Shown piece after piece: positions 373-62,822 of a DNA stretch of 64,000 bases. Position numbers and translations under genes: made by a program. A model generated the notes under the pieces. The model saw only the letters and a program-made list of their open reading frames with translations. It was not told where the DNA came from and did not search any database. The DNA lies in contig NZ_BMNZ01000003.1 of assembly GCF_014646815.1 (NCBI RefSeq), forward strand, positions 62,001-126,000, read 5' to 3'. The stretch's first letter is position 1, and every line of letters begins with the position of its first letter. The stretch is from Terrabacter tumescens (GTDB lineage Bacteria; Actinomycetota; Actinomycetes; Actinomycetales; Dermatophilaceae).

Positions 373-846
373 ATGGGTGGCAGGCACGAGGGCACCGGCG
401 GGAGCCGGCTGTGCGCGCCCGCTGCCCACCGGGCCGTCGCCGGGCTCGCCTGCCCGGTCGTCGGCTACTTCGTGGCCCGCCTGCTCGTGCGGCTCGTGCC
501 GTCCCTGCCGACCGCGATGACGTATGCCGTGTGCCTGGCCGTCGCGCTCGCCCTGGGTTGGCGTGCCTGGTCGGCGCGCATCGAGCTCGGGACCCGGAGC
601 CTGCGCGTGCACAACACGCTGGCCACGACCACGGTCGACCGGCGCGACGTGCGCCGGGTGTCGGCGAACGGGCGGCTCGAGTGGCGACGTGACAGTGGCC
701 GGCCGGTGCGCCTGCCGTCGGAGGCGCTGCGCGGCGCGTGGTGGACCCTCGGCACGGGTCGCGAGGCCTACGCGTTCAACCGCGAGCGGCTCGAGAGCTG
801 GGCGCGCCTGACGGCCCGGCTCGACCTCGACACCGAGCCCGCCTGA
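373..846 (+). CDS. Small membrane protein with PH-like C-terminal half
   Basis: A protein of 157 aa. After a short polar N-terminus it has two hydrophobic segments (about residues 17-35 and 40-62). A soluble stretch follows, beginning IELGTRSLRVHNTLATTTVDRRDVRRV. That pattern, a membrane pair then a short beta-rich domain, is typical of actinobacterial bPH-like proteins of unknown function. The protein ends with acidic residues. It is monocistronic, starts at a leaderless promoter and is closed by a strong hairpin at 890-934. I do not recognise a specific function. Confidence 0.75.
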   Translation: MGGRHEGTGGSRLCAPAAHRAVAGLACPVVGYFVARLLVRLVPSLPTAMTYAVCLAVALALGWRAWSARIELGTRSLRVHNTLATTTVDRRDVRRVSANGRLEWRRDSGRPVRLPSEALRGAWWTLGTGREAYAFNRERLESWARLTARLDLDTEPA

Positions 847-889
847 CCCGCCCGAACCATGCCTGGGCCCGCCTGAGCGAGACGGACAC

Positions 890-934
890 ACGTCGAGAGG
901 CCACGAACCGGTCCGGTTCGTGGCCTCTCGACGT
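890..934. terminator. Bidirectional hairpin between the membrane-protein gene and etfA
   Basis: A perfect inverted repeat with 22-bp arms (890-911 and 913-934) around a single central base, lying between two convergent genes. There is no T-tract, as is common for high-GC actinobacterial terminators. Confidence 0.75.
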
Positions 935-987
935 TCAGAGCTGGCGCAGATCTAGCGCAGGGCCCCGCGCCGTGGCGCGGGACGCGT

Positions 988-1953: not shown

Positions 1954-1992
1954 GGTGCGGATCTCCTTTGCTGGCTGGGAAGTTCAGGAGGG

Positions 1993-2775: not shown

Positions 2776-2856
2776 GGGTGAACGTCCTCTTCCGTTGCTG
2801 GTGGTGGTGCTCATGGAGCTGCCGGAGGTCGCTCCGGCACTGCCTGCCATCCTCTC

Positions 2857-2874
2857 ACTGAGCGCTCGCTCAGT
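2857..2874. promoter_or_regulatory. Palindromic operator candidate upstream of etfBA
   Basis: ACTGAGCG-CT-CGCTCAGT is a perfect inverted repeat of 8-bp arms in the region between etfB and the divergent SDR gene. Size and symmetry fit a TetR-family operator, and many actinobacterial fatty-acid catabolic operons are under TetR repressors. The cognate regulator is not identified. Confidence 0.5.
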
Positions 2875-2917
2875 CCGCACGCGTCAGGCGTGACGCTCAC
2901 CACCAGAGCACCGAGGG

Positions 2918-2932
2918 CGTATGCCGCGTGCC
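2918..2932 (+). repeat. Extended GTATGCC motif, intergenic copy
   Basis: CGTATGCCGCGTGCC, identical to the copy at 26479-26493. It belongs to a dispersed motif described in the findings. Confidence 0.6.
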
Positions 2933-3023
2933 CCCTCGCGCGTCGACGACCGGCACCCGGGGCGGGTCCGTCAGGGCCAAAACCCTTCGTGCGCGCAGGC
3001 GCCCCATGCAGAGGATGGGCCGC

Positions 3024-3821: not shown

Positions 3822-3874
3822 GCGCGGTCGCCCGCGGGCGGGACGGCATACGACCCTGAACGGCTCACCCGCGG

Positions 3875-5507: not shown

Positions 5508-5513
5508 GCGTCA

Positions 5514-5585: not shown

Positions 5586-7730
5586 ATGTGCCCGCCCCTG
5601 CCCGCGACGCCCGACCTGCCTCCGGAGCTCGGGGCGCGGCTGACCGCTGACGGTGCACAGTTCTGCGTCTACGCCGGTCACGCCCGCTCGGTCGAGGTGT
5701 GCCTCTTCGACGACGCCGCGGACGGGACGACGACCGAGCGGCGCATCGCGCTGCGCCACCGGGCCCACGGGACGTGGTTCGACACCGTGCCCGGGGTCGC
5801 GGCCGGGCAGCGCTACGCCTTCCGGGTCGACGGCGACTGGGACCCCGACCGCTCCCTGCTGCACAACCCCGCCAAGCTGCTGCTCGACCCCTACGCGCGC
5901 GCCGTCGAGGGCGGAGTGCACCTCGACCCGGCCCTCTACGCCCACCGGGTCGGCCCCGACCTGCGCGGCGACCTCTGGGTGCGCGACGACCGCGACTCGG
6001 CGCCCTTCATGCCGCGCTGCGTCATCGTCGAGGACGAGTTCGACTGGGGCGAGGACGAGTTCCCGCAGCACTCGCTCACCGAGTCGCTCGTCTACGAGGT
6101 GCACGTCAAGAACGCCACGAAGCTGCACCCTGGCGTGCCCGAAGAGCTGCGCGGGACGTATGCCGGTCTGGCGCACCCCGCGTTCGTCGACCACCTGCTG
6201 GGGCTGGGCGTCACGGCGGTCGAGCTGCTCCCGGTCCACACGTTCACGCACGAGCCCGACCTTGTGCTGCGCGGGCTGAGCAACCACTGGGGCTACAACA
6301 CGCTCGGCTTCTTCGCGCCGCACGCGGCGTACGCGTCGACCCGCGACCCGCAGGGCGCCCTCGACGAGTTCAAGACGATGGTCAAGGACCTCCACGCCGC
6401 GGGTATCGAGGTGCTGCTCGACGTCGTCTACAACCACACGGCCGAGAACTCGCGCGAGGGCATGACGCTCTCGTGGCGCGGGCTCGACCAGCGCGCCTAC
6501 TACCGGGTCGACGGACGCGGGCGTGACATCGACGTGACGGGGTGCGGCAACACCCTCGACCTGACCCACCCGGTCGTCGCGCGCCTGGTGCTCGACTCGC
6601 TGCGCTACTGGGTGCAGGAGTGCCACGTCGACGGCTTCCGCTTCGACCTCGCCGTGGCGCTGGGGCGGGGCAAGGACGACGGCTACGACCGCGACCACCC
6701 CTTCCTCGTCGCGCTGCGCACCGACCCGGTCCTCTCGCGCACCAAGCTCGTCGCGGAGCCGTGGGACCTCGGCCTCCACGGCTGGCGCACCGGGCAGTTC
6801 CCGCCGCCGTTCTCCGAGTGGAACGACCGCTACCGCGACGCGACCCGCACCTTCTGGCTGCGCGACCTCGCGGCGTCCGCGTCGGGCGGCGTCGGTCACG
6901 GCGTGCGCGAGCTGGCCACGCGGCTCGCCGGCTCGCAGGACCTCTTCGACCGGCACGACCGCGGCACCATCGCCTCGGTCAACTTCGTCACGGCCCACGA
7001 CGGCTTCACCCTGGCCGACCTCACGACTTACGACACCAAGCACAACGGCGCCAACGGCCACAGCGGCACCGACGGGTCCAACGACAACCGGTCGTGGAAC
7101 CACGGCGTCGAGGGCCGCACCGACGACCCCGACATCGCCGACGCCCGGCGGCGGTCCATGCGCAACCTGCTCGGCACGCTGCTGCTGTCGACCGGCGTGC
7201 CGATGCTCAACGCCGGCGACGAGCTGGGACGCAGCCAGCGGGGGAACAACAACCCGTACTCGCAGGACAACGAGATCAGCTGGATGTCGTGGGACCTCGC
7301 GGCGTGGCAGGAAGACCTGCTCGAGACCAGCCGGCACCTCGTGCGGCTGCGCCGCGACCACCCGGTCCTGCGGCAGCGGACCTTCTTCTCCGGCAGGCAG
7401 GTCCACGCCGACGGCTCCACCGACCTCGCCTGGTTCGGCGCCGACGGCCAGCCCATGGGCGAGCGCTGGGACGGCCCTGCCGTCGCCGTGCTCCAAGGCC
7501 TCTACAACGGCGCCGCGATCTCGGAGCGCTCCGTGCTCCTCGTGGTCAACGGCTCGGCAGGGGCGGTGGACGTGACGCTCCCGACGGCCCCCGGCGCGGC
7601 GGCCTACGAGAAGCTCTGGGACAGCGCCGACGAGCGGCCCACTCCCCCGGGCCCGCCCGTGGCCGCCGGTGACTTCGTCACGATGCGCGCGGCCTCGATG
7701 CACGTGTGGCGTCCGGTCGAGAGGGCCTGA
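5586..7730 (+). CDS. glgX: Glycogen debranching enzyme GlgX
   Basis: A protein of 714 aa of the GH13 isoamylase/GlgX subfamily, which cleaves alpha-1,6 branches of glycogen trimmed by phosphorylase. It has an N-terminal CBM48-like domain (to about residue 150). The (beta/alpha)8 barrel carries DVVYNHTAE, the nucleophile segment DGFRFDLAVALGR, the acid/base segment LVAEPWDLG and the third acid in NFVTAHDGFTLADL. A C-terminal beta domain follows. Length and motif order are complete. It is transcribed alone from a leaderless promoter and complements GlgP (9603-12191) in glycogen breakdown. Confidence 0.96.
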   Translation: MCPPLPATPDLPPELGARLTADGAQFCVYAGHARSVEVCLFDDAADGTTTERRIALRHRAHGTWFDTVPGVAAGQRYAFRVDGDWDPDRSLLHNPAKLLLDPYARAVEGGVHLDPALYAHRVGPDLRGDLWVRDDRDSAPFMPRCVIVEDEFDWGEDEFPQHSLTESLVYEVHVKNATKLHPGVPEELRGTYAGLAHPAFVDHLLGLGVTAVELLPVHTFTHEPDLVLRGLSNHWGYNTLGFFAPHAAYASTRDPQGALDEFKTMVKDLHAAGIEVLLDVVYNHTAENSREGMTLSWRGLDQRAYYRVDGRGRDIDVTGCGNTLDLTHPVVARLVLDSLRYWVQECHVDGFRFDLAVALGRGKDDGYDRDHPFLVALRTDPVLSRTKLVAEPWDLGLHGWRTGQFPPPFSEWNDRYRDATRTFWLRDLAASASGGVGHGVRELATRLAGSQDLFDRHDRGTIASVNFVTAHDGFTLADLTTYDTKHNGANGHSGTDGSNDNRSWNHGVEGRTDDPDIADARRRSMRNLLGTLLLSTGVPMLNAGDELGRSQRGNNNPYSQDNEISWMSWDLAAWQEDLLETSRHLVRLRRDHPVLRQRTFFSGRQVHADGSTDLAWFGADGQPMGERWDGPAVAVLQGLYNGAAISERSVLLVVNGSAGAVDVTLPTAPGAAAYEKLWDSADERPTPPGPPVAAGDFVTMRAASMHVWRPVERA

Positions 7731-9526: not shown

Positions 9527-9541
9527 GGCACACGGCATACG
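9527..9541 (-). repeat. Extended GTATGCC motif, intergenic copy
   Basis: On the minus strand this reads CGTATGCCGTGTGCC. It lies just downstream of the aldo-keto reductase stop and upstream of the hairpin at 9551-9583. Confidence 0.6.
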
Positions 9542-12313: not shown

Positions 12314-14593
12314 GTGACTGGCTCAGCGAAGAAGTCCCGTTCCGGCAAGCCGAACCGCGTGCGCAGCGCCGCTCCCCCTGCGACTCCCCCAGCTCCTCCT
12401 GTTGATCCCGTTGCTCCCGCCGCTCCCGCCGCTCCCGCTGTGGCGACTCCCCCAGCCCCTCGGCGCGACGACTCCACACCGACCGCGGACTCCGCCTTCG
12501 TCGACGACACCGCGGCCGGTGCCGTCCACCTCGCTCCCGACCACGCCGTGAGCACTCCGCCGAGCGTGGAGGGTATGCCGGGTGGCGCGCTCCCCATGGG
12601 ACGCATCCCCGTGAGCGACGTCCGTCCGCTCGTCGACGGCGGCACGCGCCCCGCGAAGTCGGTCGTCGGCGAGGAGTTCACCGTCCGGGCCAAGGTCTTC
12701 CGCGAGGGCCACGACGCGGTCAACGCCACCGCGGTCCTCACCGACCCCGACGGCCACGAGCACTACTTCGCCATGCACAGCGACAACCCCGGCCTGTCCG
12801 AGTGGTCCACGAGCGTCGTCGCAGACCGCGAGGGCTGGTGGACCTACCGCGTCGAGGGCTGGTCCGACCCCTACGCGACGTGGGTGCACGACGCCGGCAT
12901 CAAGATCGACGCCGGGGTCGACGAGGACCTCATGTGCGCCGAGGGCGTCCGCGTGCTCCAGCGCTTCGCCGAGTCCGTCCGCGGCCTGGGCGTCGACGCG
13001 TCCGAGATCGACAAGGGCGTGCTCGCCCTCGGCGACACCCGCTCGCCCGCCGCCCACCGCTTCGGCGCGGCGACCTCGCCCGAGATCACGGGACTGGCCG
13101 CGCTCGTGCCGCTGCGTGAGTTCGTGTCGAGCTCACCGGCATACTCCCTGCTCGTCGAGCGCGAGCGCGCGCTCTACGGCGCGTGGTACGAGATCTTCCC
13201 CCGGTCCGAGGGCGCGCACCGCGACGAGACGACGGGTGAGTGGGTCTCCGGCACCTTCCGCTCCGCCGCCGAGCGGCTGCCCGCCATCGCCGACATGGGC
13301 TTCGACGTCGTCTACCTCACCCCGATCCACCCCATCGGCACGACGGCTCGCAAGGGGCGCAACAACTCCCTCAGCGCGCAGCCCGGCGACCCCGGATCCC
13401 CTTACGCCATCGGCTCCCCCGACGGCGGGCACGACGCCATCCATCCCGACCTCGGCACCTTCGAGGACTTCGACCACTTCGTCGCCGAGGCCGGTCGCGT
13501 CGGGCTCGAGGTCGCGCTCGACATCGCGCTACAGGCCTCCCCCGACCACCCGTGGGTGCAGACGCACCCGTCGCTCTTCACGACGCGCGCCGACGGCAGC
13601 ATCGCCTACGCCGAGAACCCGCCCAAGAAGTACCAGGACATCTTCCCGCTCAACTTCGACAACGACCCCGCCGAGGCCTACGCCGAGGTGCGCCGGGTCA
13701 TCCAGGTGTGGCTCGACCACGGGGTGCGCATCTTCCGCGTCGACAACCCCCACACCAAGCCGGTCGCCTTCTGGCAGTGGCTGATCGCCGACGTCGCCCT
13801 GCAGCACCCCGAGACCGTCTGGCTCTCCGAGGCGTTCACCAAGCCGGCGATGATGCACGAGCTCGCCAAGGCCGGCTTCCAGCAGAGCTACACCTACTAC
13901 GCGTGGCGCAACGCCAAGTGGGAGCTCGAGGAGTACGGCCGCGAGCTCGCGGGCGAGACGACCGGGTCGGCCTACATGCGCCCGTCGTTCTGGCCCACGA
14001 CGCACGACATCCTCACGCCCTACATGCAGTACGGCGGACCCACCGCGTGGAAGCTGCGAGCCGCGGTCGCGGCGACGATGTCACCGACCTACGGCATCTA
14101 CGCCGGCTACGAGCTGATGGAGCACGTGGCGCGCCCCGGCGCCGAGGAGCAGATCGACAACGAGAAGTACGAGTACAAGGACCGCCAGTGGTACCTCTAC
14201 GAGCCCGGCGGTCCGCTCGAGAGTCGTTCTCTCGCCTGGTATCTCAAGCGGCTCAACGACATCCGCGGCTGGCACCCGGCCCTGCGCTGGCTGCGCAACC
14301 TGCGCTTCCACGCCGCCGACGACGAGAACGTCCTCGTCTTCAGCAAGTCCCGCGTCGTCGACCGGGACACGGGTGAGCGGGACACGGTGCTCGTCATCGC
14401 CAACCTCGACCCGCACGCGACCCGTGAGACGTGGGTGCACCTCGACATGGAGGCTCTGGGTATGGCCACGTGGTCGACCTTCGAGGCGCACGACCACATC
14501 ACGAACCAGACGTGGGAATGGCGCCAGGACAACTTCGTCCGTCTGGGGCCCGACTCCGAGCCCGTCCACATCATCCACGTGAGGAGCCACTGA
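12314..14593 (+). CDS. glgE: Alpha-1,4-glucan:maltose-1-phosphate maltosyltransferase GlgE
   Basis: A protein of 759 aa, family GH13_3. It transfers maltosyl units from maltose-1-phosphate to alpha-1,4-glucan. A roughly 60-residue Ala/Pro-rich extension precedes the beta-sandwich domain, longer than in most homologues. The barrel shows ADMGFDVVYLTPIHPIG, the nucleophile in GVRIFRVDNPHTKP, the acid/base Glu in VWLSEAFTKP and EQIDNEKYEYKDR, a GlgE signature. The start is GTG 12314 because of the -10 hexamer spacing. First gene of glgE-treS-mak-glgB-pgm; treS begins 3 nt after its stop. Confidence 0.96.
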   Translation: MTGSAKKSRSGKPNRVRSAAPPATPPAPPVDPVAPAAPAAPAVATPPAPRRDDSTPTADSAFVDDTAAGAVHLAPDHAVSTPPSVEGMPGGALPMGRIPVSDVRPLVDGGTRPAKSVVGEEFTVRAKVFREGHDAVNATAVLTDPDGHEHYFAMHSDNPGLSEWSTSVVADREGWWTYRVEGWSDPYATWVHDAGIKIDAGVDEDLMCAEGVRVLQRFAESVRGLGVDASEIDKGVLALGDTRSPAAHRFGAATSPEITGLAALVPLREFVSSSPAYSLLVERERALYGAWYEIFPRSEGAHRDETTGEWVSGTFRSAAERLPAIADMGFDVVYLTPIHPIGTTARKGRNNSLSAQPGDPGSPYAIGSPDGGHDAIHPDLGTFEDFDHFVAEAGRVGLEVALDIALQASPDHPWVQTHPSLFTTRADGSIAYAENPPKKYQDIFPLNFDNDPAEAYAEVRRVIQVWLDHGVRIFRVDNPHTKPVAFWQWLIADVALQHPETVWLSEAFTKPAMMHELAKAGFQQSYTYYAWRNAKWELEEYGRELAGETTGSAYMRPSFWPTTHDILTPYMQYGGPTAWKLRAAVAATMSPTYGIYAGYELMEHVARPGAEEQIDNEKYEYKDRQWYLYEPGGPLESRSLAWYLKRLNDIRGWHPALRWLRNLRFHAADDENVLVFSKSRVVDRDTGERDTVLVIANLDPHATRETWVHLDMEALGMATWSTFEAHDHITNQTWEWRQDNFVRLGPDSEPVHIIHVRSH

Positions 14594-16303: not shown

Positions 16304-17730
16304 TGGCGATCGTGCACAAGGGCGCGAGCATCGTGCCGACCAAGACCGAGATGGTCACCGAGTGGATGCCGCGCCAGCGGTGGTACCACGGCAAGGGTCA
16401 CGTGCCGCAGCTGCGGCGCGTCGGCGGCTTCCGCTTCGAGGACCCCGACGGCGAGGTCGGCTGCGAGACGCTGCTGCTCGCCGACGAGGCCGTGACGCCC
16501 GCCGTCGTCTACCAGGTCCCGCTCACCTACCGGGCCGCGCCGCTCGAGGGCGCCGAGCACGCCCTGCTCGGCACGATGGAGCACAGCGTCCTCGGCACCC
16601 GCTGGGTCTACGACGCCCCGCACGACCCGGTCTACGTCGGCCAGCTCATGGCGACGATCCTCGGGGCCGGCGTCTCCGACGAGGCCCAGGCCTCGGTCGG
16701 CAGCAACGCCCTCGCGACGGGCTCCTCGACGGGTCGCGCCCACGGGTCCGTGTCGTCGGCCACCGTGCTGAGCGGCGAGCAGTCCAACACCTCGATCATC
16801 TGCCGCATGACGGCGCCGGGCGGCGGTCCCGCCGAGCCCGTCATCGTCAAGGTGTTCCGCACCCTCCAGGACGGCGACAACCCCGACGTCGTCGTGCAGT
16901 CCGCTCTGACCGCCGAGGGTTCCGACCGGGTCCCGATGGCGATCGGGCACCTCTCCGGCGCCTGGGACTCCCCCGCCGACGGGTCGCCCCTGCACGGGCA
17001 CCTCGCCTTCGCGCAGGAGTTCATCCCGGGAGTCGAGGACGCCTGGCGCGTCGCCCTCGTCGCCGCGGCGTCGGGCACGGACTTCACGGCCCGGGCGCGC
17101 GACCTCGGAGTCGTGACCGCCGAGATCCATGGCGCGCTCGCCTACTCCCTCGGCACCCACGAGGTGACCCCGGAGGCCCGCGAGGCCGTCGTCGCGTCGA
17201 TGCGACAGCGGTATGCCGCGGCCGTGGCCCTCGTGCCCGACCTCGCCTCCCGCTCGGCCGCCGTCGACCGCGTCGTGGAGTCGGTCCGCGACGTGCACTG
17301 GCCGCCGCTGCAGCGCATCCACGGCGACTACCACCTCGGACAGGTGCTCGACGTGCCCGAGCGGGGTTGGGTGGCCCTCGACTTCGAGGGCGAGCCGCTG
17401 CGCCCGCTCGCCGAACGCGTACTCCCCGACCTCACGGCGCGCGACGTCGCCGGGATGCTGCGCTCGTTCGACTACGCCGCCGGCTCCGTGGCGCTGGCCG
17501 AGTCCCCCGTCGACGCCACGGCCTGGGCCGCCGCCTGCCGGGCGGCGTTCCTCGACGGCTACGCCTCCGTCGCGGGCGCACCCGACGCCGACGCCCAGGC
17601 GCTGATCCGCGCGCTCGAGCTCGACAAGGCGCTCTACGAGGTCGTCTACGAGGCGCGCAACCGGCCCACGTGGCTGCCGATCCCGCTCGGCGCCGTCGAG
17701 CGGCTCACCACCGAGGAAGGCACGCCATGA
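16303..17730 (+). CDS. mak: Maltokinase
   Basis: A protein of 475 aa, also known as Pep2. It phosphorylates maltose to maltose-1-phosphate, the GlgE donor. The N-terminal cap domain (WMPRQRWYHGKG, RVGGFRFEDP) is characteristic. The aminoglycoside-phosphotransferase-like catalytic loop is HGDYHLGQVLD and the metal Asp follows in WVALDFEGEPLRPLAER. The segment LSGEQSNTSIICR stands at the nucleotide-binding loop. It overlaps treS by one base and glgB by 4 nt. The order treS-mak is what the GlgE pathway requires. Confidence 0.95.
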
Positions 17731-20065
17731 CCACCGACACCACCCGGGGCCCTTCCCTGGACGACGCGGCCATCACCGCCTTCCTCCAGGGCCGCAACGG
17801 ACAGCCGCACGACCTGCTCGGCCACCACGTCGGCCCGGGCGGCCTGACCATCACGGCCTACCGCCCGTACGCGACCCGCGTCGGCGCCCGGCTCGACTCC
17901 GGCGAGCGCGTCGAGCTGCAGCACGTCCGGGACGGCATCTGGTCGATGACGTCTCCCGACTTCGGCACGACGCACGACTACCGCCTCCTCGTCGAGTACG
18001 GCGACGGCGTCGAGCACGAGCAGGACGACCCGTACCGCTTCGCGCCGACCCTCGGCGAGATCGACCGGCACCTCATCAACGAGGGACGCCACGAGCAGCT
18101 GTGGACCGTCCTCGGCGCCCACGTGCGCCACTACCCCGGACCCCTCGGCGACGTCTGGGGCGTGTCCTTCGCCGTCTGGGCGCCCCGCGCCAAGGCCGTC
18201 CACGTCATCGGCGACTTCAACGACTGGGACCGTCGCTCGCACCCCATGCGCGCCCTCGGCGAGAGCGGCATCTGGGAGCTGTTCCTGCCCGGTGCCCAGG
18301 AGGGGATGAACTACCAGTTCGCCGTGCGCGGGCCCGACGAGCTCGTCCGGCTCAAGAGCGACCCGATGGCGCGCATGACGGAGGTCGCCCCCAAGCAGGC
18401 TGCCATCGTCACCGAGACCCACTACGACTGGCGCGACGACGACTGGATGGAGCGTCGCCGCACGAGCAACGCGCACCAGGGGCCCATGAGCATCTACGAG
18501 GTGCACCTCGGCTCGTGGCGCCAGGAGCTGGGCTACCGCGGTCTCGCCGAGCACCTCGTCAACTACGTGCGCGACCTCGGCTTCACCCACGTCGAGTTCC
18601 TCCCCGTCATGGAGCACCCCTACGTGCCCTCGTGGGGTTACCACGTCACCGGCTACTACGCCCCGAGCTCGCGCTGGGGCCGCCCTGACGACTTCCGCTA
18701 CCTCGTCGACGAGCTCCACCGTGCCGGCATCGGTGTGCTGCTCGACTGGGTGCCGGGCCACTTCGCCACCGACGAGTGGGCCCTCGCCCGCTTCGACGGG
18801 CTGCCGCTCTACGAGCACCCGGACCCGCGCAAGGGATGGCACCCCGAGTGGGGCTCGAACATCTTCGACTACGGCCGCCCCGAGGTGCGCAACTTCCTCG
18901 TCGCCAACGCGCTCTACTGGCTGGAGGAGTACCACATCGACGGTCTCCGGGTCGACGGCGTCGCCTCCATGCTCTACCTAGACTACGCCCGCAACCCGGG
19001 CGAGTGGATCCCCAACAAGGACGGGGGCCGGGAGAACCTCGAGGCCGTCGAGCTGCTCAAGGAGACCAACGGCACCGCCTACAAGCGGGTCGGCGGCATC
19101 GTCACGATCGCCGAGGAGTCGACGACGTGGCCCGGCGTCACGAGGCCCACCGACCAGGGCGGCCTCGGCTTCGGCTTCAAGTGGAACATGGGGTGGATGA
19201 ACGACTCGCTGAAGTACCTCGGCGAGGAGCCCATCTACCGCAGCTACCACCACGGTAAGCTGACGTTCTCGCTCATGTACGCGTTCGACGAGAACTTCGT
19301 CCTGCCGATCAGCCACGACGAGGTCGTCCACGGCAAGGGCTCGCTCCTGCGCAAGTCGCGCGGCCCGCGCGAGGAGCAGGTGGCGACGCTCCGCGCCTTC
19401 CTCGCCTACCTCTGGTGCCACCCCGGCAAGCAGCTGCTCTTCATGGGCTGCGAGTTCGGCCAGGAGTCCGAGTGGTCCGAGGGCCGCAGCCTCGACTGGT
19501 GGCTGCTCGAGCAGCCGCTGCACTACCGCGTCCACAACCTCGTCAAGGACCTCAACGGGATCTACCGCAGCCACCGCGCGCTGTGGGAGCTCGACGCCGA
19601 CCCCTCGGGATTCGAGTGGCTCGAGGCCGACGACGCCGCCCACAACACGTTCTCGTGGCTTCGCTTCGGCACCGGCGACCGCGCGACGGACGCCCCCGTC
19701 GTCGCGTGCGTCATGAACTTCAGCGGCGAGACGCAGCAGTCCTACCGGATCGGCGTGCCGCGGGGCGGGAGGTGGACGGTCGTGCTCGACACCGCCGGCT
19801 ACCACCCCGACGCGCCGAGCAGCACCGGTCTCGTCGTCGAGGCGCGCCAGGAGGCGTGGCACGACCAGCCGTATGCCGTCGACGTCACGGTGCCGCGCCT
19901 GTCGACCGTGTGGCTCGTCCCCGTCGACGAGCCCACGACCTCGGCGGTCGCAGGTGCCTCGGGGAGCTCGGCGGTCACCGCGACGGTCGACGGGGCTGCC
20001 ACCGGTTCCGCATCCAGCGCCGTCGCCCCAGCACCTGCCGCCACGACCACGAACGGAGACCCCTC

Positions 20066-20069: not shown

Positions 20070-21708
<1,639 letters not shown>

Positions 21709-24545: not shown

Positions 24546-25049
24546 TCAGGCGCGCCGGATCATCCTCACCTCGGGCGTCCCGGTGGCCGGGTGCACGTCA
24601 CGCCCGCCCTCGAGGGCGAAACCGCGGCGGGAGTAGAAGGCCCTCGCCCGGGCGTTGCCGTCGACGACCCACAGCGTCGCGTCCCTGGCGCCGAGCAGCT
24701 CGTCGAGGAGCCGGTCCGCGACACCCGTGCCGCGGGCCGGTGCGGCCAGGTTCACGGCATACAGCTCCCACTCGGTGGGCGCGTCCTCGTCACGGCTCGG
24801 CCCGGCGCTGCCGAAGCCCGCGAGCTGGCCGTCGGGACCGACGACGACGAGCGTGCCGCCGGGCTCGTCCGCCGGGCGCGCCGCGATCCGACGCCAGTTG
24901 TCGGCGCAGCGTTCGTCACTGAGCCCCGCGAGGTAGTCCGCGGGCATGAGGCCGGCGTACGCGTCCCGCCAGACGGCCATGTGGACGCGACCCAGCTCGT
25001 CGCAGTCCTCGATCGCGAGCGGCCGCAGCTGCCAGTCCGGCTCAGTCAT
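24546..25049 (-). CDS. GNAT family N-acetyltransferase
   Basis: A protein of 167 aa. GNAT motif A is ELYAVNLAAPARGTGVADRLLDELL with the acetyl-CoA pyrophosphate loop (ARGTGVA). Motif B is VDGNARARAFYSRRGFALEGG. The start overlaps the stop of the preceding UPF0045 gene by 8 nt, so the two are translationally coupled. The substrate cannot be inferred. Confidence 0.92.
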   Translation of the reverse strand: MTEPDWQLRPLAIEDCDELGRVHMAVWRDAYAGLMPADYLAGLSDERCADNWRRIAARPADEPGGTLVVVGPDGQLAGFGSAGPSRDEDAPTEWELYAVNLAAPARGTGVADRLLDELLGARDATLWVVDGNARARAFYSRRGFALEGGRDVHPATGTPEVRMIRRA

Positions 25050-25362: not shown

Positions 25363-25368
25363 ACCGTA
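25363..25368 (-). promoter_or_regulatory. -10 element of the UPF0045 gene
   Basis: TACGGT on the minus strand is embedded in GGCATACGGT and ends 6 nt before ATG 25356. Confidence 0.5.
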
Positions 25369-25426
25369 TGCCGCCGGCGGACCTGTCGCACGGCCACCCC
25401 CAGCCCTGCCTCGACCACGCGCCGGC

Positions 25427-26478: not shown

Positions 26479-26493
26479 CGTATGCCGCGTGCC
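26479..26493 (+). repeat. Extended GTATGCC motif, intergenic copy
   Basis: CGTATGCCGCGTGCC, 45 bp upstream of the GNAT gene start. The 209-bp region between that gene and meaB otherwise holds a GATCGGGCGC block at 26547 and a block at 26582-26601 that recurs at 46425. Confidence 0.6.
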
Positions 26494-32231: not shown

Positions 32232-32248
32232 CGACCACACGGCATACG
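32232..32248 (-). repeat. Extended GTATGCC motif, intergenic copy (variant)
   Basis: Minus strand CGTATGCCGTGTGGTCG, a 17-bp match to the copy at 35996-36012. It lies in the 284-bp region between the DUF998 gene and ccr. Confidence 0.6.
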
Positions 32249-34391: not shown

Positions 34392-34406
34392 CGTATGCCG
34401 GGTGCC
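34392..34406 (+). repeat. Extended GTATGCC motif, intergenic copy
   Basis: CGTATGCCGGGTGCC, in the divergent region between the SRPBCC gene and the AI-2E transporter gene. Confidence 0.55.
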
Positions 34407-37642: not shown

Positions 37643-37951
37643 TCAGCGGTAGGAGTTGCCGGGCGGCCGGGCGTCACGGCGCTGCCAGCACCCGGTGTGC
37701 CAGTGCCGCCGGTCGCCGAGACCGCCGACGCCCTCCGCCGGCCACACGACGACGTGCGGCACGCCGGGCGGGATGTCCTGCTGGCAGCCGGGGCACAGGT
37801 AGTCGCGGGTGGCGGTCGCCCCGCTCACGGAGCGCACGGTCCAGCGCGTGCCGGCATACGACTCCTCGCGGGTCGATCCGCCCTGGATCCGCGTCACGTC
37901 CAGCGGCACGTGCTCGCGCGCGTGCTTGCTGGGACGACGGCGCGAGGGCAT
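37643..37951 (-). CDS. Small conserved zinc-ribbon-like protein
   Basis: A protein of 102 aa. The central part YLCPGCQQDIPPGVPHVVVWPAEG and GDRRHWHTGCWQRRD supply a C-x2-C and an H-x3-C pair that could bind zinc. Short proteins of this pattern are widespread in actinobacteria without assigned function. TACGCT lies 6 nt before the ATG, giving a leaderless start. The 3-hydroxyacyl-CoA dehydrogenase gene ends 16 nt upstream. Confidence 0.8.
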   Translation of the reverse strand: MPSRRRPSKHAREHVPLDVTRIQGGSTREESYAGTRWTVRSVSGATATRDYLCPGCQQDIPPGVPHVVVWPAEGVGGLGDRRHWHTGCWQRRDARPPGNSYR

Positions 37952-40527: not shown

Positions 40528-40561
40528 CCGACCGACGGCGTATGCCGTGCGGCCGGCTTAG

Positions 40562-41279: not shown

Positions 41280-41627
41280 TCAGGACAGTCCCTCGAGCGG
41301 CGCTCGCGTGGTGCCGTCGGCGTCGACGAGGAGCAGCACCGGCTCTGAGGCGTCGCCACCCCGCACGACGACGACCGTCTCGCCCCGGTGCCGGTCGACG
41401 AGCTCCTCGAGACCCGAGGACCCGTCGTGCAGGTCACCGTGGCCGAGGTGCGACGGGACCCCGAGGTCGTCGGCCAAGGACTCGACGGGACCCGTGTCGG
41501 GGACGTCGTCGGCGGCATACACCGCCTGGACCTTCTCGAGGTGGACGGCCGACGCCAGCCACGGGACGTCCGCCAGCCCCGGCGGGTTGACGACGATGAT
41601 GCGCGCGGCGCACTGCAGGTCGCTCAT
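41280..41627 (-). CDS. Short histidine-phosphatase-like protein lacking catalytic residues
   Basis: A protein of 115 aa. Strand and helix order echo the SixA-type histidine phosphatases: ARIIVVNPPG at the place of the catalytic LVRHGE strand, VQAVYAADDVPDTGPVESLADDLGVP at the place of the SSDLxRAxETAxxLAExLG segment, and LEELVDRHRGETVVVVRGGD at the place of the GxTVLLVSHG strand. Both catalytic His and the key Arg are missing. If this reading is right it is a pseudoenzyme. The match is by eye and could be wrong. Leaderless start (TAGCGT). Confidence 0.6.
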   Translation of the reverse strand: MSDLQCAARIIVVNPPGLADVPWLASAVHLEKVQAVYAADDVPDTGPVESLADDLGVPSHLGHGDLHDGSSGLEELVDRHRGETVVVVRGGDASEPVLLLVDADGTTRAPLEGLS

Positions 41628-46329: not shown

Positions 46330-46351
46330 CCCGCGCGGGACCCGCCCACGC

Positions 46352-46365
46352 GGCATACGGCATAC
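46352..46365 (+). repeat. Tandem pair of the GGCATAC motif
   Basis: GGCATAC occurs twice head to tail, 23 bp after the adenosyltransferase stop. The rest of the 221-bp region to the next gene holds a GATCGGGCGC block (46378) and a block at 46425-46444 that matches 26582-26601 in 19 of 20 positions. Confidence 0.9.
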
Positions 46366-46550: not shown

Positions 46551-47576
46551 ATGGACCGCACCCTCTCCCCGTTGCTGCGAGACATCGCGCAGCACCAGCA
46601 CGGCGTCCTGACGCGGCGCCAGCTGCTCGACGGGGGCGTCACGCCCGCACAGCTGCGCACCCGCCTCGGCCGGGAGTGGCGGCTCGTCCTGCGCGGGGTC
46701 GTCCTGCTCTCCAACGGCACGCCGAACGAGCAGCAACGCCTCATGGCCGCCCAGCTCTTCGCGGGACCACGCAGCTGGCTCGCAGGTCCCACCGCGGCAG
46801 CGCTGCACGGCATCGGTGACCTGACGGTCACCAACCCCGTCCACGTGCTCGTCCCGGCACCGCTCCGGTCACGCACCCACGCCTGGGTCGTCGTGCGCAA
46901 CACGACCCTGCTCGACGAGCCGCTGCACCGGCGCGGACCGCTGCGGCTCTCCTGCCCCGCCCGCGCCGCCGTCGACGCCGCGGCAGCCGCCCCGTCCGAC
47001 GAGCTGGCCCGGGCCGTCCTCGTCTCGGCGGCGCGCTCACGGACGGCGCGGATGGGCGACCTGCTGCACTGGGTGCTCGCCGGGGGTCAGGTCGGCTCGC
47101 ACCGCCTCCACGCCGGCCTGTCCCTGGCGGCCACGGGTGCCTGGTCGCTGCCCGAGGCGGAGCTGCTCGCCCTGCTGTCCACCTCGAGCGTCCTGCCGCC
47201 GCTGCTCGCCAACCCCGAGCTGCGCGACGGCGAGGGGGGCCGGCTCACCACCCCCGACGTCTGGGTCGACGACGTGGCGATGGCGGTCATGGTGCACAGC
47301 CGGAAGTGGCACGCGGGCGAGCGCGAGTGGGAGTCGACCATCGAGCAGGACACCGACCTCCAGGCCGCACGCGTCGTCGTCGTCGGGGTGACCCCCCACT
47401 CGATCCGCGCCCGACCCCGCTGGGTGCTGGAACGCGTCGAGGCGGCATACCTTCGTGCGAGGACGGCGGGCGTGCGCGCGGACGTGGTCGCGACGCCGCG
47501 GGACCCGTGGCAGGGCGGGCTGCTCCAGCCGCCCGGCCCGGTGCCTGAGTCCGGAAGGGTCCGAACCCGTTCCTGA
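46551..47576 (+). CDS. AbiEi-like N-terminal domain protein with nuclease-like C-terminus
   Basis: A protein of 341 aa. Residues about 5-55 (LLRDIAQHQHGVLTRRQLLDGGVTPAQLRTRLGREWRLVLRGVVLL) form the winged-helix/AbiEi_4 domain of type IV antitoxins. The C-terminal part, PDVWVDDVAMAVMVHSRKWHAGEREWESTIEQDTDLQAARVVVVGVTPHSIRARP, follows the Vsr/DUF559-like nuclease pattern, but the usual acidic residue in the second strand is not evident. No AbiEii-type toxin gene is adjacent, so it does not look like a toxin-antitoxin pair. Such orphan proteins are numerous in actinobacteria; function unknown. Confidence 0.75.
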   Translation: MDRTLSPLLRDIAQHQHGVLTRRQLLDGGVTPAQLRTRLGREWRLVLRGVVLLSNGTPNEQQRLMAAQLFAGPRSWLAGPTAAALHGIGDLTVTNPVHVLVPAPLRSRTHAWVVVRNTTLLDEPLHRRGPLRLSCPARAAVDAAAAAPSDELARAVLVSAARSRTARMGDLLHWVLAGGQVGSHRLHAGLSLAATGAWSLPEAELLALLSTSSVLPPLLANPELRDGEGGRLTTPDVWVDDVAMAVMVHSRKWHAGEREWESTIEQDTDLQAARVVVVGVTPHSIRARPRWVLERVEAAYLRARTAGVRADVVATPRDPWQGGLLQPPGPVPESGRVRTRS

Positions 47577-48979: not shown

Positions 48980-49022
48980 CGTGGCTCCGGCTCCGGCGGG
49001 TTCACCGAGCAGGTATGCCGTC

Positions 49023-50717: not shown

Positions 50718-52487
50718 TCATCCGGCGTTCCTGCGCAGGACCACGAGCTCCGACGTCGAGCCGACCGGGTGGTAGCCCGCCTCGACCCTGGCCCGCAGCG
50801 GGTCCGCAGCCGCTCCCCCGGCAGGTTCGGGGCCCCACCACCGGGTCGGGTGGACCACGCAGTCGGGGGTCACGCCCCGGGTGTCGAGCCACCGCACGAC
50901 GTGCGAGGTGCTGGGGCCGAAGTCCCCGAGCCAGGTCACCGGGCTCGCGACGTGCACGTCACCGAGGAGGTATGCCGCGGGGTAGCCGATCGCGAGCACG
51001 CTCGACCCGGGTCGCGCGCAGGTCCGGAGGGCGGCCTGGGCGCTCGCGACCTCGTCAGCCCTTCGCTGGCTGGTCAGCAGGCCGGCGTACGCGCCCGCCG
51101 GCGCCGCCACGTCGAGGCGCGCCAGAGGTGCGTCCCGGAAGCTCGTGGCCGTGTGGGCGGCGACGAGGGAGCCGAGCACGAGCACCCCGACCGCACCTGC
51201 CATGGCCGCCGCGAACGGTCGTCGCGGCGTGGGCGCAGGCTCGGGAGAGTCTGGATGCCGGTTCAGGGATTGCAGCCGGACCAGGCCGAGGAGCGCGCAG
51301 GCCGTCACGGCGAGGACGGCCGGTGCGAGACACGCCCCGACCGCGCCCCACCGCGGTGACGAGGCGGTGAAGGCCGCGACGGTCGGCGCCCCGACGAGCG
51401 CGGGTGCCAGGCCGATCACGAGCAGCCGCGCGGGCATCCCCCGCAGGCGGAGTGCCGTGACGACGGCGGCGGGCAGCAGGACGAGGCACAGCACGAGGGC
51501 GAGGACCGGACTCAGCCACGACCCGATGGAGTAGGTCGCCGTGACCGCGTCACGGGTCAGGCCCTGCACGGCCGTGAGGACCACCGCCGCGAGCAGGAGG
51601 GGCGCGGCGAACCGACTGCGGCGGGCGAGCGCCACGGCCGCGACGACCGCGAGGACGAGGGCGAACGCGACGGCGGGCTGGGCCAGCTCTCCCCCGAGGT
51701 AGGCCAGCCACGCCCGCAGACGGCCGAGCCGGTCGACGCCGCCGCCCTGGTAGTCGCTGGTGAAGGCGAGGGTCTCCCGCACGTGGTCGATGCCCCAGAC
51801 CGCAACCGCGAGACCGACGACGACCGCGGCGGCCCCGGCGGCCCCGGCGACGAGCCCGATGCGTACGCGTCCCCTGGCGCAGGCGAGGCCGACGAGCAGC
51901 ACTGCGGCCGCGGCCGGTGTCGTCACCGGGTGGCTCACGGCCCCGAGGGCGGCGGCGGACCCGCCGAGCACCGCCCAGCCGAGCGAGCCACGGGCGATGG
52001 CACCCGCCGCGCTGCTCGCGCCGACGAGGTAGAGCAGCGCCGGCGTCGTGTTGTAGCCGACGAGCTGCAGGTTGTACGCCGTCGGCACGACGGCCGTGAC
52101 GGCCGAGAACCCCGCGACCACCCGGCCGGTGAAGCCCCGGACGGCCCACCAGGTCAGGGCCGCGACCCCGATCGACAGCGCGACGAAGTAGATCCGGGAC
52201 GCGAGGACGATGCCGTCGAGACCCACGAGGTGCGACCAGACCCAGACGAACGGCACCGCGGGCCAGGCCCCGAGCACCTGCAGGTTCATCTCGTCGCGGA
52301 ACGGCAGGTCACCCCGGGCCAGCCGCAGGGCCAGCTCGACGGCGTGCGTGCCGTCGCCGAGGTCGAGCCCCAGACGGGCTCGCGCACCGAGGGCCAGGCC
52401 CACGGCCAGCATGAGAAGGGGCGTCGCGACACGACGAACGGGGAGGGCCGCAAGGGCACCTCCCCGTCGTCGGGTGAGACCGGTCAT
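50718..52487 (-). CDS. Multi-spanning membrane protein, GT-C glycosyltransferase-like
   Basis: A protein of 589 aa with about 11 membrane helices and a C-terminal soluble part of about 130 residues. The first loop after helix 1 reads LDLGDGTHAVELALRLARGDLPFRDEMNLQVLG, where the acidic residues and the P-F-x-D-E pattern recall the catalytic loop of GT-C (family 39/PMT-like) enzymes using polyprenyl-phosphate sugars. No firm family assignment is possible by eye. It starts 18 nt after the atpD stop on the same strand and so is likely read through from the atp operon. Confidence 0.75.
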   Translation of the reverse strand: MTGLTRRRGGALAALPVRRVATPLLMLAVGLALGARARLGLDLGDGTHAVELALRLARGDLPFRDEMNLQVLGAWPAVPFVWVWSHLVGLDGIVLASRIYFVALSIGVAALTWWAVRGFTGRVVAGFSAVTAVVPTAYNLQLVGYNTTPALLYLVGASSAAGAIARGSLGWAVLGGSAAALGAVSHPVTTPAAAAVLLVGLACARGRVRIGLVAGAAGAAAVVVGLAVAVWGIDHVRETLAFTSDYQGGGVDRLGRLRAWLAYLGGELAQPAVAFALVLAVVAAVALARRSRFAAPLLLAAVVLTAVQGLTRDAVTATYSIGSWLSPVLALVLCLVLLPAAVVTALRLRGMPARLLVIGLAPALVGAPTVAAFTASSPRWGAVGACLAPAVLAVTACALLGLVRLQSLNRHPDSPEPAPTPRRPFAAAMAGAVGVLVLGSLVAAHTATSFRDAPLARLDVAAPAGAYAGLLTSQRRADEVASAQAALRTCARPGSSVLAIGYPAAYLLGDVHVASPVTWLGDFGPSTSHVVRWLDTRGVTPDCVVHPTRWWGPEPAGGAAADPLRARVEAGYHPVGSTSELVVLRRNAG

Positions 52488-52505: not shown

Positions 52506-53993
<1,488 letters not shown>

Positions 53994-56738: not shown

Positions 56739-57550
56739 TCAGGCGCCCATGGCCCGGCGGGCCGCGTCGAGCTTGCGGATGACGGTGCCGTCGATGAGCT
56801 CGTCACCGATCTCGACCCTGATCCCGCCCATGACCCGAGGGTCGACGACGGTGTTGACGTGGACCGCGCCGCCGTAGATGGCGGCCAGGCCCGCGGCGAG
56901 GCGGGCCCGGTCCTCGTCGGTGAGCGGGACGGCCGAGGTGACGGTGGCCGTCTGCTGCTCGCGGCGGCTCGAGGCCGTCTCGAGGTAGTGCTCGACGACC
57001 CGGTCGAACCGACGGCCGCGCGGGGCGACGACGGCCTGGCGGGCCAGCACGAGGGTCTCCGGCGTGACCTTGTCCCGCAGGAGCGACGACACGAGGTCTG
57101 CGCGCTTGTCGGCGGGGGCCTGCGTGTCGGTCAGCGCCGCACGCAGTGCCGGGTCGGCGGCGACGATCCGCTCGAACCGGAACAGCTCGTCCTCGACCCG
57201 GTCGGCACGACCCTCGGTCTCGGCCTGCGCGATGACCGACTCGATGGCATACGCCTCGATGGCGTCGGTGAGGTCACGCTCGGAGCTCCAGCGCTGCCCG
57301 AAGGCACCCTTGAGCACGACGAGCGCCTCGGCGCTGACCTTGCCCGCGAAGAGGCGCTCGGCGAGCTGGGCCTTCTCCGCACCCTCGCGGGAGGGGTCGG
57401 CCACGGCACGGCGCAGGGTCGCGCTGCCGTCGATGACACCGACGACCGCGAAGAGCTCCTCGGCCAACCGCGAGCGGTCGGCGCCGGCAGCAAGGACGCC
57501 GGTGAACGCCTCGCGGCTCGCCGCCGCTGCTGCGCGTGAGGGTCCCTGCA

Positions 57551-57551: not shown

Positions 57552-58159
<608 letters not shown>

Positions 58160-59344: not shown

Positions 59345-59504
59345 GGGTTACTCCTTCGTAGGTTCTGGGCGCTTCGGCTGACGGAGGGCGTCAGCGGTGC
59401 AGGGGCGGTGCTCGGGTGCGAACTCCCGGCTGGGCCCCGGGTCTGCGGGCCGGCAGGCGACTCGCTGGCGGGCGGCACGGTGGCCGTCGGGCTCGTCTGC
59501 GGGC

Positions 59505-59771: not shown

Positions 59772-59785
59772 GTGCACCTCCGTGG

Positions 59786-60259: not shown

Positions 60260-60388
60260 GAAAACCTGCCTGGTGCGTCGAGAGGCGTAGTGCGGGCGGG
60301 GCTCGGGCTGATCCGGATCGTGCTCGGATCGGTCGTGCGGAGAAGCGGATCGGGCTCCTACGGCGGCCTTCTCAGACTGCCCTCAGGT

Positions 60389-60410
60389 GCTTGTGAATGC
60401 TATCACAAGC
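60389..60410. promoter_or_regulatory. CRP/GlxR-type binding site upstream of the atp operon
   Basis: TTGTGA-N6-TCACAA, a perfect palindrome of 8-bp arms counting the flanking GC. It matches the TGTGA-N6-TCACA consensus of CRP-family regulators. It overlaps the wecA stop codon and lies 130 bp upstream of the first atp gene. Confidence 0.65.
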
Positions 60411-61500
60411 GTTCCGACGGCCTCCACCGCGGAAGCCAGACAGTGAGGACGACACCCATCGCGGCGGCGGCCCCCACGACCGCCAGCGGACGGGGCCCGT
60501 CCCAGATGACGAAGGACACCGAACCCAGGGCCACGATGGCGGCCCAGAGGTAGAGGATCAGCACGGCACGGCGGTGGCCGTGGCCGATGCGCAGCATGCG
60601 GTGGTGCAGGTGCATCGCGTCCGGCTGCCACGGGCGCTGGCCCGCTCGAGTGCGCCGGACGACGGCGAGGACCATGTCGAGGAACGGCAGCAGCAGGACG
60701 GCCAACGGCACGAGGATCGGCAGGAACGCCGCCGACACCTCGTTGGCGCTGACCTGCCCGGGGTCGACGTTGCCTGTCAGGGTGATGGTCGCCGCCGACA
60801 GCAGCAGCCCCAGCGTGAGCGCGCCCGAGTCGCCCATGAAGAGCCGAGCCGGGTGGAAGTTGTGGGGCAGGAAGCCGGCACAGCACCCGACGAGGGCCGC
60901 GCTGATGAAGGTGGCGGTCGAGAACACGTTGGCCGGGGCGAACGAGCGCGAGACGAGGTAGCTGTAGATGAAGAAGGCGAAGGCCGCGATGCCGACGACG
61001 CCGGCCGCGAGCCCGTCGAGGCCGTCGATGAAGTTGACGGCGTTCGTCGACGCGATGACGACGAGCACCGTGAAGAGCACGAGCACCGGCGTGGGCAGGA
61101 TCGTCGTGCCGAAGATCGGGAGCGAGAGCAGCTGCACTCCCGTGTAGGCCATCAGCCCGGCGGCGAGCATCTGCCCGGCCAGCTTGGTCAGCCAGTCGAG
61201 CTCACGGATGTCGTCGAACGCCCCGAGCAGGCACACGATGCCGCCGGCGGCGATGACGCCGAGGATCCGACGGTCGGAGAAGAGCGTGCCGAGGTAGGGC
61301 AGCGCCCGCGCCACGAGGGCGGCCGCGACGAACCCGATGTAGATCCCCACTCCCCCGAGCCGTGGGATCGGCGTCTTGTGGACGTCCCGCTCACGGACCG
61401 CCGTGAAGGCGCCCGTCGCGACGGCGAGGCTCCGGACGAAGGGTGTGGCGAGGTACGTGACCGCAGCGGCCACGATGAGGACGAGGACGTACTCGTGCAC
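60403..61500 (-). CDS. wecA: WecA/MraY-family undecaprenyl/decaprenyl-phosphate GlcNAc-1-phosphate transferase
   Basis: A protein of 365 aa with about 11 membrane helices. Conserved cytoplasmic loops are present: VHKTPIPRLGGVGIYIGF, LLGAFDDIRELDWLTKLAGQ (DD pair), ASTNAVNFIDGLDGLAAGV (NxxNxxDGxDG) and GDSGALTLGLLL, plus HLHHRMLRIGHGHRR which marks WecA rather than MraY. It transfers GlcNAc-1-phosphate to a polyprenyl phosphate, starting arabinogalactan-like or teichoic-acid glycan synthesis. The order sua5-glyA-wecA-atp is common in actinobacteria. Confidence 0.95.
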   Translation of the reverse strand: MHEYVLVLIVAAAVTYLATPFVRSLAVATGAFTAVRERDVHKTPIPRLGGVGIYIGFVAAALVARALPYLGTLFSDRRILGVIAAGGIVCLLGAFDDIRELDWLTKLAGQMLAAGLMAYTGVQLLSLPIFGTTILPTPVLVLFTVLVVIASTNAVNFIDGLDGLAAGVVGIAAFAFFIYSYLVSRSFAPANVFSTATFISAALVGCCAGFLPHNFHPARLFMGDSGALTLGLLLSAATITLTGNVDPGQVSANEVSAAFLPILVPLAVLLLPFLDMVLAVVRRTRAGQRPWQPDAMHLHHRMLRIGHGHRRAVLILYLWAAIVALGSVSFVIWDGPRPLAVVGAAAAMGVVLTVWLPRWRPSERL

Positions 61501-61544
61501 CTACCGACCTTCGCTCGGACGCCGACGCTGGCGAGTGGGCTGAC

Positions 61545-62822
61545 TCAGCGAGGGTATGCCGGGAAGCGCGTCACGAGGTCGGTGACCTCGGCACGCACCT
61601 GCTTGCTGACCGCGTGGTCGGGGTCGGCGTCGCCCTGCGTCACGGCCTGGTGGATGAGCGAGGCGATCTGCTTCATCTCCTCCAGGCCCATGCCCTGCGT
61701 CGTCACCGACGGCGTGCCCACGCGGATGCCCGAGGCGATGTTGGGCTTCTGCGGGTCGAACGGGATGGCGTTCTTGTTGAGCACGATGCCGGCGGCGTCG
61801 GCGCGCTCCTCGGCCTCCTTGCCCGTGACGCCGACACCCTGCAGGTCGAGGAGCGACAGGTGGGTGTCGGTGCCGCCGGTCGTCGGGCGGATGCCGAGCT
61901 CGAGCAGGCTCGCGGCGAGCTGCTGGCTGTTGGCGATGACGTCCGTGGCGTACTTGGCGTACTCCGGGGTGGCGGCCTCCTTGAAGTTGACCGCCTTGGC
62001 CGCGATGGTGTGCATCTGCGGGCCGCCCTGCATCATCGGAAAGATCGCCTTGTCCATGGCGGCCGCGTGCTCGGCCTTGCAGACGAGGGCGCCGGAGCGC
62101 GGGCCGCGCAGCACCTTGTGCGTCGTGAAGGTGACGACGTCGGCGTACGGGACGGGCGACGGGATCGCCTTGCCGGCGACGAGGCCGATGAAGTGGGCGG
62201 CGTCGACCCAGAGGATCGCGCCGACCTCGTCGGCGATCGCGCGGAAGCGGGCGAAGTCGATGAGGCGCGGGATCGCGGAGCCGCCGGCGCAGATGACCTT
62301 GGGGCGGTGCTCCTTGGCGAGCGCCTCGACCTGGTCGTAGTCGATGTCCTCGGTGGTGGCGTCGACGCCGTAGTGCACGGCGTTGAACCACTTGCCGGAG
62401 AAGGACACCTTGGTGCCGTGCGTCAGGTGGCCGCCCATCGGCAGCGCCATGGCGAGGATGGTGTCACCGGGAGACATGAAGGCGCCGTAGACCGCCTGGT
62501 TGGCGCTCGCACCGGAGTGGGCCTGGACGTTGGCGTGGTCGGCGCCGAAGAGCGCCTTGGCCCGCTCGATGGCGATGGTCTCGGCCTTGTCGACCTCGGA
62601 GCAGCCGCCGTAGTAGCGCCGGCCCGGGTAGCCCTCGGCGTACTTGTTCGACAGCGTCGACCCGAGGGCGGTCAGCACCGCGGGCGAGCTGATGTTCTCG
62701 CTCGCGATGAGCTGCAGGCCACTGCGGATGCGGTCGAGCTCGGACAGCAGCACCCCCGCGATGTCGGGGTCGAAGGACTGCAGGGCGCCGAAGTCGGAGC
62801 CGTAGAACGTGTCGTCAGCCAT
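61545..62822 (-). CDS. glyA: Serine hydroxymethyltransferase
   Basis: A protein of 425 aa. PLP-dependent interconversion of serine and glycine with tetrahydrofolate. The PLP lysine is K236 in VVTFTTHKVLRGPRSG. LIASENISSPAVLTALGSTLSNKYAEGYPGRRYYGGCSEVD and VQAHSGASANQAVYGAFMSPGDTILAM are family hallmarks. GGAGAA precedes the ATG. Besides one-carbon supply, glycine/serine metabolism connects with C2 assimilation. Confidence 0.97.
   Translation of the reverse strand: MADDTFYGSDFGALQSFDPDIAGVLLSELDRIRSGLQLIASENISSPAVLTALGSTLSNKYAEGYPGRRYYGGCSEVDKAETIAIERAKALFGADHANVQAHSGASANQAVYGAFMSPGDTILAMALPMGGHLTHGTKVSFSGKWFNAVHYGVDATTEDIDYDQVEALAKEHRPKVICAGGSAIPRLIDFARFRAIADEVGAILWVDAAHFIGLVAGKAIPSPVPYADVVTFTTHKVLRGPRSGALVCKAEHAAAMDKAIFPMMQGGPQMHTIAAKAVNFKEAATPEYAKYATDVIANSQQLAASLLELGIRPTTGGTDTHLSLLDLQGVGVTGKEAEERADAAGIVLNKNAIPFDPQKPNIASGIRVGTPSVTTQGMGLEEMKQIASLIHQAVTQGDADPDHAVSKQVRAEVTDLVTRFPAYPR

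Follow-up and report, generated by a model that had tools for sequence, protein, structure and literature searches.

An iterated octamer with lineage dialects in the Dermatophilaceae, a probable DNA uptake sequence associated with a Tad/Flp pilus locus

A 64,000-nucleotide stretch of the Terrabacter tumescens genome (contig NZ_BMNZ01000003.1, positions 62,001 to 126,000; hereafter, the window) is strewn with copies of one short word, the octamer CGGCATAC. This word is probably a DNA uptake sequence of the family Dermatophilaceae, used in natural transformation, occurring in dialects and read by a Tad/Flp competence pilus. On account of its density, its symmetry between strands, the skewed orientation of its hairpin-forming pairs, its dialects, a genus that carries two words, its scarcity in inserted elements and its link to the tad-1 locus, it resembles the known DNA uptake sequences (DUS) and uptake signal sequences (USS). 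From these genomic patterns we infer sequence-specific uptake, its receptor, and strains that are, or recently were, transformable.

The repetition had been noticed in a first-pass annotation as a heptamer, GGCATAC/GTATGCC, and all 31 positions listed there are exact (14 GTATGCC and 17 GGCATAC). The excess of the heptamer is real, although the background of about six copies assumed at the time was too high, the third-order Markov expectation being 3.2. The repeated unit, however, is not the heptamer, which was rejected because the octamer CGGCATAC fits better and covers 29 of the 31 copies. This octamer is non-palindromic. A third-order Markov model predicts 1.5 copies of it in the window against the 29 present, and no other 8-mer there is as strongly over-represented. 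The remark that the core GCATAC hardly ever lacks its leading G was borne out for 31 of the 32 hexamers in the window; the lone hexamer without it lies within GCGCATACCC at 4668-4677. By approximate gene calls, 12 of the 29 octamers fall between genes, in about 10% of the DNA. The intergenic excess therefore stands, with this count in place of the 11 heptamers first reported.

The abundance of the word extends to the whole genome from which the window comes (G000; 4.71 Mb in 23 contigs). Here, relatives are coded G plus a number and their sizes are rounded values; genera are numbered g1 to g74, and sampled stretches carry the prefix L. The genome of T. tumescens contains 2,358 copies of CGGCATAC, versus 199 (88 forward and 111 reverse) of the reversed-word control, so the genome-wide count does not fall back to background. 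The copies divide into 1,200 on the forward and 1,158 on the reverse strand, in agreement with the lack of strand bias that had been held against a role like that of the FtsK-orienting polar sequences (KOPS).

The relation of the word to coding sequence was explored in 522 kb of the same genome, where a custom GC-frame procedure served for gene calling and coding and intergenic figures are accordingly approximate. This sample holds 273 sites, 183 of them coding, compared with 14.8±3.8 after synonymous codon shuffling within genes, which is a 12-fold excess. The density is 1.16 per kb between genes and 0.41 per kb in coding DNA, a 2.8-fold difference. Part of the TAT (105 of 225), ATA (13 of 30) and GCA (50 of 981) codons lies inside the word, in line with the earlier observation that it spells Tyr-Ala or Ala-Tyr with TAT and GCA. 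Bases outside the codon pair matter as well: the G_G flanks of the word were present on 105 of 129 TAT-GCC pairs versus 21 of 206 TAC-GCC pairs, and a CG_ flank on 50 of 53 GCA-TAC pairs. Codon-pair content thus does not explain the excess, and the proposal that the DNA word is kept, rather than the protein, is upheld. Beyond the octamer, the adjoining bases are only mildly constrained: of 248 copies, 81% follow an A or G and 89% precede a G or C.

Within the family the distribution is patchy, and relatives bear CGGCATAC, a different word or none. Among 58 relatives surveyed, the 22 that belong to the order but not to the family contain between 2 and 167 copies of CGGCATAC, close to their controls. 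Candidate replacement words came from surveying every 8-mer in sampled stretches and were then tested against synonymous shuffles. In coding DNA, CGGCATCC reached 95 copies versus 17.6 shuffled in G034, where the same 140 kb held no CGGCATAC, and 19 versus 3.9 in G024. For CGGCGTAC the counts were 82 versus 19.8 (G070), 25 versus 6.0 (G031), 21 versus 6.0 (G110) and, more weakly, 22 versus 10.5 (G032). The word CGCCGTAC gave 67 versus 21.8 in sampled G098, and CCCCTTCG gave 32 versus 7.4 in Janibacter melonis (G067) and 21 versus 4.7 in G152. As cross-controls in T. tumescens, CGGCGTAC stood at 26 versus 55.6 shuffled and CGCCGTAC at 21 versus 30.8. By inspection, none of CGGCATAC, CGGCATCC, CGGCGTAC, CGCCGTAC and CCCCTTCG is palindromic.

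Four of these words (CGGCATAC, CGGCATCC, CGGCGTAC and CCCCTTCG) were counted over 168 genomes of the family. In each of 18 genomes sampled from g59 (which includes J. melonis) and g60, CCCCTTCG occurs 1,553 to 3,180 times, and elsewhere at most 396 times. CGGCATCC reaches 2,099 to 4,480 copies in g17, g27 and g66, and part of g2 shows a lesser increase; CGGCGTAC exceeds 1,100 copies in g62, g24 and g25, in two of four g3 genomes, in two of three g70 genomes and in G098. Two g66 genomes carry two words together (1,217 CGGCATAC and 2,195 CGGCATCC in G074; 1,189 and 2,099 in G108), and two other genomes of this genus have mostly CGGCATCC.

Several smaller observations touch on these dialects. Janibacter (G067, the g60 genomes and L043) and Marihabitans L026 share an unrelated iterated word, CCCCTTCG/CCCCCTTC, found at 2.4 per kb between genes in G067. 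In 20 kb of Flexivirga endophytica (L017), CGGCATAC, CGCCATAC and CGTCATAC are each enriched, as though a single position could vary, and in 20 kb of Pedococcus cremeus (L024) GTCATGAC is enriched alongside CGGCATAC (10 versus 0.8). Outside the family, stretches of 20 kb each from Enemella (L048), Actinopolymorpha (L049) and Nesterenkonia (L053) contain the possible words AGGCGTAC/CGGCGTAC and the palindromic CGACGTCG. Comparable words may exist in other actinobacterial families, the hints from the 20-kb stretches of Enemella and Actinopolymorpha being weak.

The genes that could take up DNA were then compared with the presence of a word. Of the 168 family genomes, 164 encode ComEC (147 of the 148 of good quality), and PilM, a marker of the type IVa pilus, was absent from 34 of the 36 family genomes searched. 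Neither is informative as a discriminating gene, and the absence of PilM makes a ComP-type receptor in a type IVa pilus unlikely. The family does possess a locus with the order tadA-tadB-tadC-small pilin-like-tadE-tadF-tadG, with gene names assigned by likeness, which we take to be tad-1. Its minor pilins, candidates for the putative receptor, share the prepilin motif with Micrococcus luteus TadE and TadF as given in PMC6370729; the assignment to tad-1 is based on gene order and these motifs. The T. tumescens genome also has a tad-2-like locus. In M. luteus, transformation requires ComEC, tad-1 (tadB excepted) and tad-2, according to excerpts of PMC4322843.

A T2SSE family search of 34 genomes returned many paralogues and revealed that some tadA genes are split. 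A genome was scored as having a word above cutoffs set after the counts had been seen (120 per Mb for CGGCATAC, 500 for CGGCATCC, 300 for CCCCTTCG and 300 for CGGCGTAC), and the list of word-low genomes was transcribed by hand. Eleven genomes from six genera have no tad-1 TadA match beyond paralogue level, and all 11 lack all four counted words. Among the other genomes, including those with interrupted or remnant tadA, 123 of 155 have a word and 32 have none of the four. Absence of tad-1 is thus associated with absence of a word (P = 1e-7 for genomes and 1.3e-4 for genera, of which 14 of 53 are wordless; these statistics ignore kinship). Two incomplete genomes without a TadA match, G115 and G120, both word-negative, were set aside. 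When remnants and incomplete genomes were scored as lacking tad-1, 12 of 15 were word-negative (P = 6e-6), and with the fragments of G121 and G025 scored likewise, 12 of 17 (P = 6e-5); either scoring makes the association weaker without abolishing it.

Five genera include a genome in which tad-1 tadA is interrupted (G000, G015, G058, G160 and G161), the two parts of the gene being separated by 5 to 79 kb; in T. tumescens the split gene occupies L177:6597-13301 (contig C6 of G000). The elements in G000, G015 and G161 contain a gene judged from its sequence to be serine-recombinase-like, and presumed transposase-like genes were found in the part of the G160 gene list examined. These elements are poor in words relative to genome density (1 versus 2.7 expected in G000, 1 versus 12.4 in G015, 1 versus 9.5 in G160 and 5 versus 14.9 in G161), and the four together hold 8 words versus 39.6 expected. 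The deficit in T. tumescens alone is not significant, and the G161 element counts for less because its flanks are also poor in words (4 in 40 kb). The split genes resemble a situation put forward in excerpts of PMC4774983, namely, mobile elements that insert in competence genes.

Neighboring words less than 120 bp apart show a preferred orientation. Nine of 14 such pairs in the T. tumescens sample are inverted in the same sense, GTATGCCG...CGGCATAC (P = 0.002); it is only the orientation of close pairs that is skewed, not their number. Six of the nine inverted pairs were folded, and all six gave stems that include both words, with z-scores below −3.5 for four of them and of −2.7 and −1.4 for the others; five of the six lie in DNA called intergenic. 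The spacing of words is slightly even (coefficient of variation of 0.863 versus 0.959±0.053 simulated, P = 0.026).

Alignment with relatives showed that word sites often differ by point substitutions. One region of the window encodes a probable ATP-synthase gamma subunit (97 to 98% identity to records from Terrabacter and allied organisms), and the DNA there is 92% identical to that of T. aerolatus. An inverted pair in this region carries a matching change in both arms, which read CGGCATCC in Humibacillus sp. DSM 29435 where the window has CGGCACAC; in L004 and L052 its arms are unequal. Overall, words were conserved in 0.65 of comparisons (510 of 787) versus 0.52 for control 8-mers of equal A+T. 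The count used 11 of 14 aligned sequences and took every pair in both directions; L009 and L012 (without the word) and L052 (with the word) were excluded. The higher conservation of word sites is only suggestive.

Several ways in which the word might work had been listed in the first-pass annotation. Uptake is favored among them because of the dialects, the hairpins of inverted pairs, the low word density of inserted elements and the presence of words together with a locus for a competence pilus. Another entry of that list, a remnant of a dispersed repeat, was rejected, since the flanks of the 248 copies are only mildly biased and relatives often differ by point substitutions at the sites. In the proposed mechanism, the putative receptor would be a surface-exposed part of the Tad/Flp competence pilus specified by tad-1, and would bind double-stranded DNA bearing the word. 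The pilus would carry this DNA across the cell wall, ComEA and ComEC would import one strand, and recombination would swap the homologous stretch of the chromosome. Biased uptake would then retain word-bearing alleles and multiply the word; if the preference of the receptor changed, the lineage would move to a new dialect.

Some results weigh against this mechanism. The 24 one-mismatch variants of the word show no summed excess (363 versus 347 expected, second-order model, 464 kb). Such variants might be expected from decaying uptake words, and their lack of excess counts against uptake; an excess is, however, an accompaniment of the DUS/USS class rather than its definition. Words less than 120 bp apart are no more numerous than expected (14 versus 16.5), and CGGCATCC, a foreign dialect for T. 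tumescens, is mildly above its shuffle there (80 versus 56.9±5.7). The 32 wordless genomes among the 155 comprise eight whole genera that keep tad-1 and single members of other genera. Conversely, a word is present without full-length tad-1 TadA in G077 and J. melonis G067, which have remnants only, and in G121 and G025, which have fragments, and G116 (73% complete) has a word with nothing above paralogue level. The tadA of T. tumescens is itself interrupted. Moreover, the tad-1 association was found after ComEC and PilM had been looked at, with thresholds set afterwards and kinship ignored.

None of the other explanations accounts for every feature. Dense octamers are known from cyanobacteria as highly iterated palindromes (HIP; excerpts of PMC4390886); some lineages have alternate versions, every one paired with a methyltransferase of its own, and an orphan DNA methyltransferase together with methyl-dependent mismatch repair, as proposed there, could keep a word of this kind. 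Such an origin is unlikely here, given that HIPs are palindromic and the five octamers are not, and that it predicts neither joint loss with tad-1 nor inverted pairs that form hairpins. The intergenic excess and the hairpins, most of which were called intergenic among those folded, would suit the binding site of a nucleoid-associated, partition or regulatory protein, or a spread transcription terminator, and a word of this type would likewise be missing from mobile elements. Against this, two thirds of the copies (183 of 273) lie inside genes, most of them singly, and the tad-1 association is left unexplained, so that we consider this reading quite improbable.

Words for recombination or replication, such as Chi and KOPS, are also short, dense, over-represented and variable between lineages, but they are strand-biased along replichores. 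A Chi-like hotspot or a KOPS-like or other segregation word is very hard to reconcile with the equal strands of T. tumescens and with the forward/reverse counts of 53/61 and 56/60 in sampled arms of the one-contig genome G097 (origin assumed at the contig start, GC skew being uninformative); a strand-biased replication word is therefore not supported. Chi is listed among the classes of frequent oligomers in the excerpts of PMC4390886. That most coding copies read Tyr-Ala or Ala-Tyr might point to codon-pair bias or base composition, without a role at the DNA level. This is practically out of the question, being refuted by the excess over synonymous shuffles, the flank dependence and the higher density between genes.

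The positions of the word in the window were obtained by exact string match, with intergenic status from approximate gene calls. Intergenic copies lie at 3844..3851, 9533..9540 and 32240..32247 on the plus strand, where an overlapping direct pair is also found (copy 1 at 46351..46358 and copy 2 at 46358..46365), and at 2919..2926, 12573..12580, 25366..25373, 26480..26487, 34393..34400, 40540..40547 and 49013..49020 on the minus strand. The other plus-strand copies are at 13137..13144, 21402..21409, 24755..24762, 26008..26015, 26679..26686, 35461..35468, 37852..37859, 41513..41520, 47443..47450 and 53112..53119, and the other minus-strand copies at 522..529, 6158..6165, 17211..17218, 19871..19878, 35997..36004, 50970..50977 and 61554..61561. 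Two plus-strand GGCATAC heptamers are near-matches to the octamer, preceded by A (30323..30329) and by T (57246..57252).

Uptake words have been described from species of two Gram-negative families (excerpts of PMC7811141). A literature search of listings and abstracts, which covered few subscription papers and no bioRxiv preprints, found no report of such words in actinobacteria or Gram-positive bacteria, and a search with the octamer string gave, among the matches listed, no work on bacterial genome words by title or abstract. It seems reasonably likely that a Gram-positive family evolved DNA self-recognition independently of the Neisseriaceae and Pasteurellaceae, with at least five words, a Tad/Flp rather than a type IVa pilus, and mobile elements repeatedly inserted in the pilus ATPase gene. 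If so, dialect words in actinobacteria, together with Flp-pilus transformation, would mean that self-recognition in bacterial sex evolved repeatedly, and the family would provide a set of naturally changed receptors whose DNA targets are known. Matching the receptor to the changes of dialect would make the DNA-binding component of the Flp pilus directly testable, and donor DNA furnished with the word could render the Dermatophilaceae amenable to genetic manipulation.

A functional parallel for the machinery is the Flp-pilus transformation of M. luteus (Angelov et al. 2015; excerpts of PMC4322843), with ComEA/ComEC, tad-1 and tad-2, where the family studied here has a tad-1-like locus and T. 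tumescens a tad-2-like one in addition; the main text of that paper does not use the term "uptake sequence." The other families searched in the order differ from the Dermatophilaceae in having CGGCATAC at or near background. Cyanobacterial HIP1 (Elhai 2015; excerpts of PMC4390886) is likewise a highly iterated octamer with alternates in relatives, but it is palindromic and tied to methyltransferases, and neither this palindromy nor the replichore strand bias of Chi and KOPS was found here. The USS of the Pasteurellaceae (Mora et al. 2020; excerpts of PMC7811141) are unrelated in word and phylum. They are similar in density (about 1 per kb, compared with 1 per 2 kb here) and alike in their opposite-oriented close pairs that form hairpins, which are said there to act as terminators at gene ends, and in sites that evolve by point mutation. 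The DUS of the Neisseriaceae (Frye et al. 2013; excerpts of PMC3630211) is a 10-mer, whereas the present word is an octamer of Gram-positive actinobacteria for which uptake is proposed. In contrast to the Neisseriaceae, PilM is mostly absent and one-mismatch variants are not in excess, and the Janibacter word CCCCTTCG, unlike a DUS dialect, is no near variant of the other words. The two systems are alike in their thousands of copies, lineage dialects a few bases apart, two dialects in one genome and family members without an obvious word. Several features that mark the DUS/USS class were found in the Dermatophilaceae: high copy number, occurrence on both strands, intergenic excess with hairpins, dialects, scarcity in foreign DNA and the presence of competence genes.

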